This document shows positions 15,600 to 46,514 of a DNA stretch of 64,000 bases, in pieces; the first letter of the stretch is position 1; the number at the start of each line of letters is the position of its first letter. Under the pieces are notes generated by a model that was not told the DNA's origin, made no database searches, and worked only from the letters and a program-made list of their open reading frames with translations. This DNA comes from Gammaproteobacteria bacterium Ga0074134 (GTDB lineage Bacteria; Pseudomonadota; Gammaproteobacteria; Ga0077554; Ga007554): positions 1 to 64,000 of the forward strand of contig LNEJ01000034.1 of NCBI GenBank assembly GCA_001464965.1. The letters run 5' to 3'. The position numbers were made by a program, and so were the translations under genes.

Positions 15600-16286
15600 T
15601 CAAGAAGACTCGCCTCGCCACAAATCAATGAGCCGTTGCACGACTGCATCGATGCCAATACCTGTCGTATCAACAACGATAGCGTCGTCAGCCGCCTTCA
15701 TTGGAGCGAAGCTGCGCGTGCTGTCACGCACGTCACGTTCAGCTATCTCTTTTAGAAGATTGCCAAGATTAACATCCAAACCTTTATCTTTCAACTGTTT
15801 ATACCGGCGCGTCGCGCGCTCCTCGGCGCTCGCCGTAAGAAAGACCTTGAGCTGGGCATCCGGAAAAACCACCGTGCCCATATCGCGTCCATCCGCCACC
15901 AGTCCAGGCGGCTCAAGAAAAGCACGCTGACGATCCAGCAGGGCAAGCCGCACGGCAGGCAATGCGGCCACGCGGGAGGCGTCGTTGCCGCATTCCTCGC
16001 TGCGCAGAGCGTCGGTAACGTCCTCCCCCTCCAGGATAACCCTGATCTGCACGTCCTCGTCGGTATCGAACTGCACGTCAAGATGTGCCGCCAGGGTTTC
16101 CAGAGCGGGTTCGTTATCCAGCGCAATGGCATGACGCTGGGCGGCCAGTCCGACAAGACGATAAAGGGAGCCGCTATCGAGAAAATGCCAACCCAGTTTT
16201 TTGGCCAGGATACGGCTCACCGTCCCTTTGCCGGAGCCGCCGGGACCGTCGATAGTAATCACTGGCGGGGGGGATTTGGGCATCAT
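15600..16286 (-). CDS. cmk: Cytidylate kinase
   Basis: 228 residues. Phosphorylates CMP and dCMP. P-loop [12 protein letters not shown] near residue 14; [16 protein letters not shown] near 128 forms the CMP site; [13 protein letters not shown] near 186 is the lid region with its arginines. The ATG overlaps the aroA stop by 4 bases. Gene order aroA-cmk-rpsA is standard for gammaproteobacteria. Confidence 0.96.
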
Positions 16287-17614
16287 GGCTGGCGATTATC
16301 TCCAACTATACCCAGGCCAGCGGCGCGCGCCAGCTCGACGAAACCGGGGAACGAGGTGCCAACATTGGCGCAATCATCGATCATAACCGGGCCGGTGGCG
16401 CGCAATGCCGCCATGGCGAAGGCCATGGCAATGCGATGATCGCCGTGGCTGTTGATACGGCCGCCGCTCAGGCCGCCGCCGCGGATCACCATGCCATCGG
16501 GCGTGGGGCGGGCATCAATCCCCAGCGCCACAAGACCGTCGGCCATAACCTGGATGCGATCACTCTCCTTGACACGCAGCTCTTCCGCGCCGCTGAGCAC
16601 AGTCTCACCCTCTGCACAGGCCGCGGCAATAAAAAGCGCAGGGAATTCGTCTATCGCCAATGGCACTTGGTCGCGCGGGATGGTTATCCCCCGCAGAGGG
16701 CTGGAACGCACCCGGATATCGGCGACCGGCTCGCCACCTGCCTGGCGCAGATGGCTTATTTCGATGCTCGCACCCATCAGGCGCAAGATATTAATGACAC
16801 CAATGCGCGTCGGATTGATTCCGACATGCTCCAAGGTCAGGTCCGAACCCTCGGCGATGGCCGCACCCACCATGAAAAACGCCGCTGATGAGATGTCGGC
16901 AGGCACATCAATCGAGGTCGCGATGAGTTTTCCACCACTGCCACCCACGCATATTTTCCCGTTTTTGCATTCAACGGGATAACCAAACCCCATCAACATG
17001 CGCTCGGTATGGTCACGCGTGGGCGCCGGCTCGGTCACACAAGTGACCCCGTCAGCATAGAGGCCGGCGAGCAACAGGCAGGACTTGACCTGCGCGCTGG
17101 CCACCGGCATCACATAATCTATACCCTTGAGATGCGCACCGCCTCGCACTTTCAACGGTGGCGTGCCTTTCCCGCTGGTCTCGATGCGCGCGCCCATCAG
17201 GCTTAATGGGTCGGCGACACGCTTCATGGGGCGGCGCGACAGGGAATCATCGCCGGTCATCACCACATCAAACGGTTGAGCTGCCAGCAGCCCTGCCAGC
17301 AGACGCATGGAGGTGCCGGAATTACCGAGATAGAGCGGACCCGCCGGGGCTTTCAGGCCGTGGAGTCCGACACCGTGAACAGTGACGCGCCCCTCATGAG
17401 GACCTTCAATTTTTACACCCATATCGCGAAAGGCATTGAGCGTCGCCAGGCTATCCTCACCCTGCAGAAAGCCGGTGATCCCGGTCGTACCCTCGGCCAG
17501 CGCACCCAGCATAATGGAGCGGTGGGAGATCGATTTATCGCCGGGGACGCGCAGACGGCCCTGCAGGTGCCCGCCAGGTGCAACAAAAAACGTGTTTGGA
17601 TGCGGTGCGTTCAT
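16283..17614 (-). CDS. aroA: 3-phosphoshikimate 1-carboxyvinyltransferase (EPSP synthase)
   Basis: 443 residues. Sixth step of the shikimate pathway, joining PEP to shikimate-3-phosphate. [18 protein letters not shown] near residue 24 binds substrate; [18 protein letters not shown] near 95 is the PEP-binding motif; LRVKESDRI near 352 is the second signature. The residue pattern with Ala after [11 protein letters not shown] resembles the class II group, but I do not assign inhibitor sensitivity. It follows tyrA after a 164-base gap that holds a two-hairpin repeat. Confidence 0.96.
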
Positions 17615-17644
17615 TTGATTCCAATTATGTTAATCACCGTAAAT

Positions 17645-17702
17645 CCCCGTAAAGGCATTGCGCCCTTACGGGTGGGCAATGGGTGGCAATGCCACGGGAG
17701 AT
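17645..17702 (+). repeat. Two-hairpin repeat, copy 1 (aroA-tyrA gap)
   Basis: Contains CCCGTAA...TTACGGG (about 17646-17672) and the perfect palindrome GTGGCAATGCCAC (17683-17695). The whole unit is closely matched, in opposite orientation, by 18693-18753 on the other side of tyrA. Looks like a REP/BIME-type element. Confidence 0.75.
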
Positions 17703-17778
17703 ACGAAGAATGCTTTTGTAGGCGGCCAAGGATTCAATCATGGCAGAAGAAAGTGGCAAATCCATTAAGGCCATATAA

Positions 17779-18660
17779 CTATTGCTCTCTTGCCGGAAAG
17801 AACCGGTCACGCGCGGATTTGGCGCGGTCAAATGTGGACAAAATGCGTTCACTATCGCCCGCACGAATCGCCTCGCCCAAAGAGGCAATATCCGCCATAA
17901 AGCGCTCCAGCACAGACAGTACTGCCACCCGATTCGCCAGACAGATGTCACGCCACATCGCCGGATCGCTGGAAGCGATGCGCGTAAAATCGCGGAATCC
18001 GCCGGCGGCGAAACGGAAAATCTCCTCGCTCTCATCCATGCGCACCAAGGTATCGACCAGCGCATAGGCCAGCAGATGCGGCAGATGGCTGGTTGCCGCC
18101 AGCACCTCGTCGTGATGCTCAACGCCCATTTCCACCACTTCGGCGCCGGTATGCTGCCACAATGCGCGCACGCTTGCCAGCGCTTCCGGCTGAGTGCGGG
18201 GCAATGGCGTGAGGATCACGCGCCGCCCTTCAAAAAGGCCAGTGAACGACGCCTCAACGCCGCTCTTTTCGGTACCTGCAATCGGATGGCCTGGCACGAA
18301 CATCGGCGGGACCTCGCCGAAAACAGCGCGGGCGGCATCCACAACACTGCCCTTGGCGCTGCCCACATCGGTAATGATGGTATCCGCACGGACATGCCCG
18401 GCGATCTGCCGGAAAACCGCCTCCATCGCCCCCAACGGCACCGCCACCACTACCATATCAGCATCATGCACCGCGGCGGCGATATCGATCTCATATCTAT
18501 CGACAACACCCAGCTCCAGTGCCTTGCGCAACTGAGCCTCATCACGACCGCCACCGACGATCTCCCGGCACACCCCTGCCCGCTTTATGGATCGCGCCAG
18601 CGAACCGCCGATAAGACCGACGCCGATGATTGCAAGGCGTTTGATCATCATTTTTGCCAC
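17779..18660 (-). CDS. tyrA: Prephenate dehydrogenase
   Basis: 293 residues, monofunctional TyrA. Oxidatively decarboxylates prephenate to 4-hydroxyphenylpyruvate. The NAD-binding loop LAIIGVGLIGGSLARSIKRAG starts near residue 9 (glycines of GxGxxG intact), with VVVAVPLGAME near 71; the C-terminal helical domain holds the SSDPAMWRDICLAN segment near 234. There is no chorismate mutase domain; that is on PheA. Met4 or Met5 could also be the start. Unusually, both flanking gaps carry the same repeat in inverted orientation. Confidence 0.93.
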   Translation of the reverse strand: MAKMMIKRLAIIGVGLIGGSLARSIKRAGVCREIVGGGRDEAQLRKALELGVVDRYEIDIAAAVHDADMVVVAVPLGAMEAVFRQIAGHVRADTIITDVGSAKGSVVDAARAVFGEVPPMFVPGHPIAGTEKSGVEASFTGLFEGRRVILTPLPRTQPEALASVRALWQHTGAEVVEMGVEHHDEVLAATSHLPHLLAYALVDTLVRMDESEEIFRFAAGGFRDFTRIASSDPAMWRDICLANRVAVLSVLERFMADIASLGEAIRAGDSERILSTFDRAKSARDRFFPAREQ

Positions 18661-18692
18661 ATGGACCAGGCAGGCTTATTAACCAAAAGAAA

Positions 18693-18753
18693 ATCCTCCG
18701 TGGCATTGCCACGCATTATCCCACCCGTAAAGGACGTAATGCCTTTACCGGGA
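18693..18753 (-). repeat. Two-hairpin repeat, copy 2 (tyrA-aroF gap), inverted relative to copy 1
   Basis: Read on the minus strand it gives GGTAAAGGCATTACG, then CCTTTACGGGTGGG and GTGGCAATGCCACGG, nearly base for base the unit at 17645-17702. Palindrome GTGGCATTGCCAC at 18700-18712. Confidence 0.75.
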
Positions 18754-18758
18754 ATAGG

Positions 18759-19775
18759 TTACAAATCCCGCCCGATCACTTGCGCGATACCACGCAACTG
18801 GCCCATCAGTTCCGTCAGTTGTGGCGGGCTGAGGGCCTGATCGGCATCGCACCATGCCTCGGCGGGCATGGGGTGCATCTCCACCAGCAGGCCGTCGGCA
18901 CCTGCCGCGATTGCGGCGCGCGACAGCGCGGGCACCATCCACGCCTTGCCGCCGGCATGGCTGGGATCAATGATCACCGGCAGATGGGTCTCACGCTTGA
19001 GCACCGGGATGGCGGTGACATCGAGCATGTTGCGGTAATAGGTCTCGAAGCTGCGTACGCCGCGCTCGCAGAAGATGATGTTGTGATTGCCACCCGCGGC
19101 GATGTATTCCGCCGCCATCAGCCACTCGGAGATTGTCGCCGACATGCCGCGCTTGAGGATCACCGGAGTCTGGATGCGGCCTACTTCTTTGAGCAGATCG
19201 AAATTCTGCATATTACGCGTGCCGATCTGGATCACATCTACCTTGTGCTCGAGAAAAGTGTCGAGCATGCGCACATCCATCAGCTCGGTGACTATCGGCA
19301 GGTTGTGCCGGTCCGCCGCGCGCCGGAACATATCCAACCCCTCGACGCCCGCCCCCTGGAAGGCATAGGGACTAGTGCGCGGTTTGAACGCGCCGCCACG
19401 CATCAGGCGGCAACCCGCGGCAGCGACGCTTTGCGCTGCGCTGTCCATCTGCGGCTGGGTTTCAACCGAACAAGGTCCGGCGATGATCTGCACCGTGTTG
19501 CCACCGAGCTTGATGCCGCCAATATCGATGACGCTGTCTTCCGGGTGAGATTCGCGCGACACGATCTTGTACGGCTTCATCACACGAATGACATTTTCCA
19601 CGCCACCCAGCGCCTGCAACGCCTCCATGTCCACCTTACGCTCATCACCGATGGCACCGATCACAGTGCGCTCGATGCCGCGTGACACATTGGAGCCCAT
19701 ACCCATGGACTCCAGTTTTTTTTCCACCGCCCGAATTTCCTCGTCGGCGACATGCGACTTCATAATGATGATCAC
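18759..19775 (-). CDS. aroF: 3-deoxy-7-phosphoheptulonate synthase (DAHP synthase)
   Basis: 338 residues. Committing step of aromatic amino acid synthesis (PEP plus erythrose-4-phosphate). It is the short type I-beta form seen in Thermotoga and Bacillus rather than the E. coli AroFGH form: residues 1-70 are a ferredoxin-like regulatory domain (MIIIMKSHVADEEIRAVEKK) and the barrel follows (IIAGPCSVE near 93, RGGAFKPRTSPYAFQG near 120, VIVDPSHAGGK-like IIDPSHAGGK near 267). The regulatory domain suggests tyrosine or prephenate feedback, which is inference. It sits between pheA and tyrA, giving a complete chorismate-branch cluster. Confidence 0.93.
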   Translation of the reverse strand: MIIIMKSHVADEEIRAVEKKLESMGMGSNVSRGIERTVIGAIGDERKVDMEALQALGGVENVIRVMKPYKIVSRESHPEDSVIDIGGIKLGGNTVQIIAGPCSVETQPQMDSAAQSVAAAGCRLMRGGAFKPRTSPYAFQGAGVEGLDMFRRAADRHNLPIVTELMDVRMLDTFLEHKVDVIQIGTRNMQNFDLLKEVGRIQTPVILKRGMSATISEWLMAAEYIAAGGNHNIIFCERGVRSFETYYRNMLDVTAIPVLKRETHLPVIIDPSHAGGKAWMVPALSRAAIAAGADGLLVEMHPMPAEAWCDADQALSPPQLTELMGQLRGIAQVIGRDL

Positions 19776-19886
19776 AGCACTACCTCATTAACAGTAATTT
19801 TTCGCCACGGAGGGCGCGGAAGACACAGAGAATACTAAGAACCTGCCTGGCATTGCCACCTTCACGGCGGCCATATTCAAAACAAT

Positions 19887-45962: not shown

Positions 45963-45983
45963 TAAATGGGGGTGGTTGTACAG

Positions 45984-46514
45984 ATGCGTTACCGGCGTGC
46001 CGATGCGGCGGGAGGAACATATTTTTTCACCGTAAATCTGGCCGAACGCCGTTCGGATTTATTGGTGCGGCATATCGATGAATTGCGTGAGGCCATGAGA
46101 ACGGTGAAAGACGTGCATCCGTTTTCCATTGTGGCGATGGTGGTGTTGCCCGAACACCTGCACGCGATATGGCGCTTGCCGCCGGGTGATGCCGATTATC
46201 CGCTGCGCTGGTCGCTAATCAAATCGGGGTTCTCACGGCGGCTGGCAAAAGGCGAGCACATCCGTGCCAGCCGCCGGGCAAAGCGGGAGCGTGGCATTTG
46301 GCAACGGCGGTATTGGGAACATCAAATCCGGGATGAAACCGATCTGGCGCGGCATGTAGATTACATTCATTTTAACCCGGTGAAACATGGCTGGGTGGCT
46401 CGTGCTGTGGATTGGCCGCATTCAACACTGCACGGATACATCGAGCGGGGCATGGTGACAGCGGATTGGGGTGGACAAATGTGTGAAGGGGTGAGTGGTT
46501 ATGGTGAATGTTGA
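45984..46514 (+). CDS. REP-associated tyrosine transposase (RAYT, Y1_Tnp family)
   Basis: 176 residues. Single Y1 transposase domain: YRRADAAGGTYFFTVNLAERRSDLLV at the start, FSIVAMVVLPEHLHAIWRLPPGDADYPLRW near residue 53 with the metal-binding HxH (HLH), and RHVDYIHFNPVKHGWVARAVDWPHSTLH near 117 with the nucleophile Tyr in DYIHFNPVKHG. RAYTs process REP palindromes. The start at 45984 follows GGTGG by 8 bases and gives the usual MRYRRAD; an ATG at 45966 is also in frame. The stop lies 2 bases before the right REP arm. Confidence 0.93.
   Translation: MRYRRADAAGGTYFFTVNLAERRSDLLVRHIDELREAMRTVKDVHPFSIVAMVVLPEHLHAIWRLPPGDADYPLRWSLIKSGFSRRLAKGEHIRASRRAKRERGIWQRRYWEHQIRDETDLARHVDYIHFNPVKHGWVARAVDWPHSTLHGYIERGMVTADWGGQMCEGVSGYGEC

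Follow-up and report, generated by a model that had tools for sequence, protein, structure and literature searches.

Inverted repeats flanking tyrA in an uncultured gammaproteobacterium as probable nested arrays of a mobile 20-nt hairpin

The window, by which we mean the whole 64-kb stretch of DNA analysed, comes from an uncultured gammaproteobacterium; the named relatives closest to its tyrA are from metagenome bins, including one from groundwater. It carries the genes for DAHP synthase (18759–19775; TIGR01361 above cut-off), for the prephenate dehydrogenase tyrA (17779–18660; PF02153, E 3.5e-40, and PF20463) and for the EPSP synthase aroA (16283–17614; TIGR01356 above cut-off), all three on the minus strand. 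Across 16283–18660, a single fused protein model (NF011381) has one half matched by tyrA and the other by aroA; they are separate genes here, and one of the repeats described below, array A, occupies the spacer between them. The original prediction that tyrA is flanked by two inverted copies of a two-hairpin repeat of about 60 bases is borne out. The segment 17644–17697 (plus strand) aligns with 18753–18698 (minus strand) in opposite orientation at 87.5% identity over 56 alignment columns. The copies are each other's best matches elsewhere in the window (E 3e-6; E 1.8e-11 for the pair in a whole-genome search), and in a repeat search of the window the pair came out as three inverted arms (88%, 88% and 93%).

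Side-by-side comparison of the search matches led to the recognition of a 20-nt module, composed of a CATTG tail, a five-base stem strand (N5), a TTYAC loop and the complementary stem strand (N5'). The CATTG foot was found by comparing matches and then fixed by the search pattern. Both repeats are nested stacks of this hairpin unit and are slightly wider than first reported, array A covering 17634–17691 and array B 18704 to about 18759. Array A (58 nt, minus strand) is parsed into three units. The outer unit is split into halves at 17634–17643 (TCACCGTAAA on the plus strand) and 17682–17691 (GGTGGCAATG on the plus strand), which when rejoined read CATTGCCACCTTTACGGTGA on the minus strand. The middle unit, likewise on the minus strand, lies in two parts at 17644–17655 and 17675–17681 that rejoin to CATTGCCCCTTTACGGGGA (19 nt), and the innermost unit, CATTGCGCCCTTACGGGTG (19 nt; 17656–17674), is in the opposite orientation on the plus strand. 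Array B, which separates the DAHP synthase gene from tyrA, is likewise built on three levels and is oriented the other way. Its outer unit is parsed on the plus strand as a left half, CATTGCCACG (18704–18713), and a decayed right half (18754–18759); the two parts of the middle unit (18714–18721 and 18742–18753, plus strand) rejoin to CATTATCCCCTTTACCGGGA; and the innermost unit occupies 18722–18741 and reads CATTACGTCCTTTACGGGTG on the minus strand. A third, solitary unit, CATTGCCACCTTCACGGCGG (19851–19870, plus strand), is located between the genes for DAHP synthase and prephenate dehydratase. A palindrome had also been noticed in both copies, and GTGGCAATGCCAC is indeed found exactly at 17683–17695 (plus strand) and 18700–18712 (minus strand). 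With one mismatch allowed it has 5 matches in the window against 0.24 expected; because it is palindromic and each copy is scored on both strands, these correspond to three places. The palindrome is a junction between the end of an outer unit (GTGGCAATG) and flanking CCAC: a CGTGG flank precedes both arrays, and CGTGG together with the unit end makes up the palindrome. Pieces of another short repeat, CCACGGAGGACACGGAGAA and its variants, are seen at 17692–17712, 18690–18703 and 19803–19840; these fragments adjoin array A, array B and the third unit, and similar words occur at other loci.

The unit is dispersed in the genomes of a single genus. A DNA search of the host genome (G000) and its relatives gave matches in 4 of 37 genomes, all of the same genus, with 4, 1, 23 and 7 matches at E <= 0.01 in G000, G001, G002 and G003, respectively. 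The pattern CATTGNNNCCTTYACGG, searched in whole genomes on both strands with at most one mismatch, occurs 31, 17, 109 and 52 times in these four genomes, compared with 2, 0, 1 and 2 times for the same pattern read backwards as a control. Outside the genus the counts (control in brackets) are 7 (1) in G004, 2 (1) in G005, 1 (1) in G008 and 0 (0) in G009. Both strands carry units: forward and reverse copies number 17 and 14 in G000, and 60 and 49 in G002. The exact pattern CATTGYSMCCTTYACGG is present in 4 of 369 sampled genomes of the class, a sample to which G001 does not belong: 72 times in G002, 26 in G003, 12 in G000 and 3 in G325. The last of these genomes is from another family, and its three loci (L254–L256) are exact matches to CATTGTGCCCTTTACGG, two of them with extended shared flanks; they possibly belong to another dispersed repeat. 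Because their context differs and two of them share extended flanks, they are not counted as the same system. Viral contigs gave no match to CATTGYCACCTTYACGGTGR in a search that may omit near records. Among the sampled genomes, the 20-nt unit system is confined to one genus.

The stem is conserved as a stem. In the pattern CATTGNNNCCTTYACGG three of the stem pairs are free to vary, and at 106 distinct places these are Watson-Crick in 86, 78 and 97 cases, or form in 91, 102 and 99 cases when G-U is allowed; none of 5000 shuffles reached the Watson-Crick count at any of the three. The main stem types are TCACC/GGTGA, CGCCC/GGGTG, CCACC/GGTGG, TCCCC/GGGGA, TGCCC/GGGCA and TGCCC/GGGTA. The set of 106 places counts copies of one MITE-like repeat more than once. 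When only the 32 distinct 20-mers are considered, covariation persists at the inner two free pairs (matched by 1 and 0 of 5000 shuffles) and is not significant at the outermost (reached by 700 of 5000), and few independent changes may lie behind the stem types. Units with fewer than four stem pairs were dropped from the site-context sets, and for this reason the covariation analysis was run on the unfiltered set. Left out of the unit counts for both analyses were L043–L063 (tyrA relatives) and 16 loci taken as outside the genus, the outside origin of L081, L082 and L088 among the latter being judged from their numbering.

Occupied and empty versions of the same site differ by 20 nt. In an IS200 tnpA gene (G000:C76) and a diverged copy on C5, 20 extra nucleotides are present at a point where the copy in G001:C30 is uninterrupted; an insertion of this length shifts the reading frame of tnpA, 20 not being divisible by three. 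A search with joined flanks returned 22 non-self rows with an empty relative. In 15 of them the alignment is free of gaps within 10 nt of the junction, and these represent, by eye, about 12 different sites, one of which (L004) lies in unit-like sequence; the other 7 have gaps near the junction, five with one and two with 4–6. Self rows in this search were limited by the score threshold. The hosts of the insertions include a transposase gene, MITE-like repeats, REP palindromes (L210, and GGTGCGCA^CAGCGCACC in L250) and spacers. We infer gain rather than loss because the empty state is an uninterrupted gene or palindrome. In two pairs of MITE-like copies in G002, 120 nt outside the 20-nt gain show 99.2% and 100% identity, and from this near-identity the activity of the unit looks recent. 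The last base of the unit correlates with the base preceding the insertion (Fisher p 0.006), and since the last bases of the unit are often those of the target, a gain of 20 nt with no duplication is indistinguishable from one of 18–19 nt with a duplication of 1–2 nt. One MITE-like repeat of G002 (L028, L030, L032–L034, L036–L039 and L110), with the ends TTAGGGGCCGT and GACGGCTTA, has many copies that contain a nested pair of CATTG units and at least one that does not. In G003, two copies of a gene that by eye resembles an IS66-type transposase gene (L152 and L162) carry a unit at a common point; this element seems to have spread together with its insert.

A frequent target of the unit is the unit itself. 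Of 140 units with flanks, 45 lie inside another unit at a small number of fixed points, a count based on the loop and the facing arm, with nested units elsewhere uncounted. In 35 the inserted unit has the orientation of its host and sits in the loop, at CATTGNNNCC(T)^(T)YACGG (27 at CCT^T, 6 at CC^TT and 2 at other points), and in 10 it has the opposite orientation and sits at NNNCCGTRAAGG^NNNCAATG, mostly GTRAAGG^NNNCAATG. Chance would place almost no units in about 100 short targets of a 2.9-Mb genome. A REP hairpin in G002 holds one unit in its loop at L210, and at the sister locus L139 a second unit lies within the first. Insertion into own copies in the same or the opposite orientation makes the arrays grow in the manner of Russian dolls. 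We consider it probable, at roughly 0.8, that the repeats around tyrA are nested arrays of a mobile 20-nt hairpin of the form CATTG + N5 + TTYAC + N5'.

This history can be followed at the tyrA locus itself. The site of array A holds a single unit (CATTGCCACCTTCACGGTGG) in G001, an outer unit plus half a unit in G003 and three levels in the present genome, a series that indicates stepwise growth; in G002 the spacer differs and no complete unit is found. In G001, one insertion of a repeat of about 250 bp with inverted ends (ATCCTAAAAACGGCAGTTG; L107), which is inserted at sites that are empty in congeners, adjoins the site of array A, and other copies of this repeat host units. The site of array B has no unit in G003 (which reads ...TCCGTGAC|TACAAATCC) or in G001, and G002 has a different stack of four units there, by eye two nested pairs. 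These comparisons bear on the original prediction that tyrA could flip by recombination between the inverted copies. The geometry, two inverted copies with 88% identity at a distance of 1 kb, is that of a recombination switch, but tyrA and the genes around it keep a collinear arrangement in each of the 3 congeners, the segment has a single orientation in all four assemblies of the genus, and the pair is not maintained between species. A flip would also set tyrA against the direction of its neighbours. With sites that carry no complete unit, one unit or other stacks while tyrA stays collinear, the switch is unsupported, and we give it next to no credence; inversion of tyrA was ruled out as a candidate on the collinearity in congeners. 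The outcome that had been named in advance as speaking against a switch, many copies in both orientations and no inversion, is what is seen as far as the assemblies show. A very improbable alternative is that the arrays are attenuator-like regulatory RNA structures of the aromatic amino-acid operon. They do sit between operon genes, and on the gene strand the RNA folds of both repeat stretches beat shuffled sequences (z −3.0 and −2.7), but units of the same kind are present at scores of other places, the arrays at the sites flanking tyrA differ in content between species, and the window contains no Rfam family at gathering score. As nested mobile hairpins, the arrays near tyrA would be passengers, whose effect is to supply the transcript of the operon with extra RNA hairpins. 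The case is a warning against taking a gene enclosed by inverted copies for a switch.

Outside its own copies, the unit prefers to insert after GR. The 140 units are distinct contexts that fall into 78 clusters (46 non-self and 32 self by the motif rule) and are not independent events; among the non-self clusters, G is found at −2 in 30 of 46 and a purine at −1 in 39 of 46. A stem of at least 5 bp encloses the junction at 10 of the 46 non-self clusters, compared with 6.3% of neighbouring positions (p 5e-4), with stems of, for instance, 16 bp (L210), 13 bp (L100) and 8 bp (L135). At self sites such a stem is present in 11 of 32, against a background of 10.2% (p 2e-4). In a thermodynamic calculation, the mean loop probability at non-self junctions is 0.366, compared with 0.234 at other positions (p 9e-4) and 0.287 in shuffled flanks (p 0.027); for self sites it is 0.327, compared with 0.250 (p 0.085) and 0.318 (p 0.42). 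The hairpin loop as a universal target, which had been considered, therefore has partial support, the thermodynamic test being weaker than the stem count: loops are favoured at some sites and are not required.

The original prediction had also raised a REP/BIME family. This stands in so far as the unit is a hairpin repeat dispersed on both strands in many copies; it fails on the tags, the foot being CATTG and neither GTAG nor CGTC, and on the transposase genes, where no complete unit was seen at the loci read. A gene for a REP-associated tyrosine transposase (RAYT; NF047646 above cut-off) lies in the window at 45966–46514 with inverted GTAG-type palindromes (GTAGGTTGGGCTGA...) on each side. 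It forms a REPtron-like unit that has no sequence relation to the CATTG units. One could suppose that a host RAYT moves the units, as is thought for REPINs, and that they are ordinary REPs whose tag defines a new class. Their anatomy, with five unpaired nucleotides as a foot ahead of a hairpin, is REP-like, a reverse-nested pair resembles a REP doublet, and besides the RAYT of the window, each of the four genomes of the genus has Y1 genes. Among the REPs already described are some with 5-bp stems, subfamilies that differ by complementary exchanges of stem residues, and families inserted in palindromes (PMC3733652). Against these resemblances stand the missing tags and the observation, by eye, that every RAYT-like gene looked at (in the window, on G000:C53 and on G003:C7) has GTAG-type palindromes of its own on either side. 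Neither at the RAYT of the window nor at 10 transposase-gene loci scanned for half-units was a complete unit found, and the listed unit closest to any of the 32 Y1 matches of the genus, barring IS200 copies with an internal unit, is 2.4 kb away. Many units, moreover, are solitary or nested head-in-loop. On the transposase loci and these distances, a RAYT-flanked REP was ruled out, and an origin of the units as ordinary REPs of a new class appears somewhat unlikely.

The best reading is that the unit is a self-targeting, REP/SDR-like and very small mobile element, apparently among the smallest that DNA offers. The unit may travel as a folded single strand that is cut and joined by an enzyme acting in trans. 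Y1 enzymes of the IS200/IS605 type use hairpins that have a short unpaired foot as substrates and do not duplicate the target, and for these reasons a Y1/HUH transposase of the IS200/RAYT kind, RAYTs included, would be the leading candidate, at a little under even odds; a Y1-type transposase working in trans on single-stranded DNA is our guess. Movement through an RNA intermediate, which has reportedly been proposed for the SDRs (described below) of cyanobacteria, would also be served by selection on hairpin pairing, which suits RNA no less than DNA. For the GC clusters of yeast mitochondria, retrotransposition and ligation mediated by RNA have been discussed (PMC4478555). No preference for the transcript strand was found, however, with 6 sense and 10 antisense units between co-directional ORFs and 4 and 11 inside ORFs, small numbers that come from crude ORF calls, 27 of the 78 clusters having no long flanks. 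An RNA intermediate accordingly seems quite improbable, and the same missing sense-strand bias ruled against RNA as the target. The orientation of units relative to local GC skew on G003:C7 is mixed by eye (about 12 leading and 7 lagging, few units in all). To return to the mobile DNA hairpin, its spread might need no dedicated transposon, a host enzyme inserting the folded strand beside GR or into exposed hairpin loops, including its own; we regard this fuller picture as tentative and, on balance, unlikely as a whole. If it is true, the element uses its own copies as the ground on which it multiplies. For REPs and SDRs it has long been asked how DNA pieces of non-coding size can increase in number within bacterial genomes. 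The present system offers a minimal unit, insertion points fixed to a base or two, recent occupied and empty pairs, confinement among the sampled genomes to one genus and a short list of candidate Y1 enzymes, which together make the question testable in a laboratory strain.

In the literature searched, which covered few subscription papers, neither a description of this unit nor an earlier self-nesting element of this kind in Proteobacteria was found, and comparison is with more distant systems. The SDRs of Nostoc and its relatives, a subject of work by Elhai and colleagues in 2008, are reportedly 21–27 nt long and share a common hairpin with compensatory changes. SDR1 and SDR4 are said to be nested in their own copies, and SDRs to occur inside mini-transposons and to be limited to one clade. 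Compared with SDRs so described, the present unit shares the hairpin with compensatory changes, at 20 nt falls one below that range, and nests in its own copies (45 of 140). SDR5 interrupts HIP1 between bases three and four (PMC4390886); the units described here reside in a gammaproteobacterium and not a cyanobacterium, and are found after GR or in their own loop. The yeast mitochondrial GC clusters GC42 and GC18 are tiny palindromes that are gained, lost and merged with one another (PMC4478555). The CATTG units are gained and merged in a similar way, whereas the clusters are mitochondrial, have AG/ACT flanks that resemble target duplications and, in the case of GC42, are twice as long. REP-targeting insertion sequences such as ISPsy8, IS1397 and others invite comparison, ISPsy8 inserting at the symmetry axis of a palindrome (PMC1525189), as the units do at palindromes. 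Those are full insertion sequences, while here the inserted piece is the 20-nt palindrome itself. MITEs (transposon-derived, 70–300 bp with terminal inverted repeats) differ from the unit, which measures 20 nt, has a 5-nt tail and lacks terminal repeats; it is hosted by MITE-like repeats. REPs, REPINs and BIMEs (PMC3733652; PMC3116915) have in common with the CATTG units a short unpaired foot, a small hairpin, dispersal, pairs in opposite orientation, location of some within palindromes, and stem subfamilies with alternative complementary residues; the present units differ from them in the CATTG foot, in the lack of visible RAYT linkage, in frequent nesting at fixed points and in single 20-nt gains with empty sites. 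Without a REP tag and, as far as the loci were read, without an association with RAYT genes, the unit is filed as a very small mobile hairpin element that combines REP-like anatomy with SDR-like behaviour.
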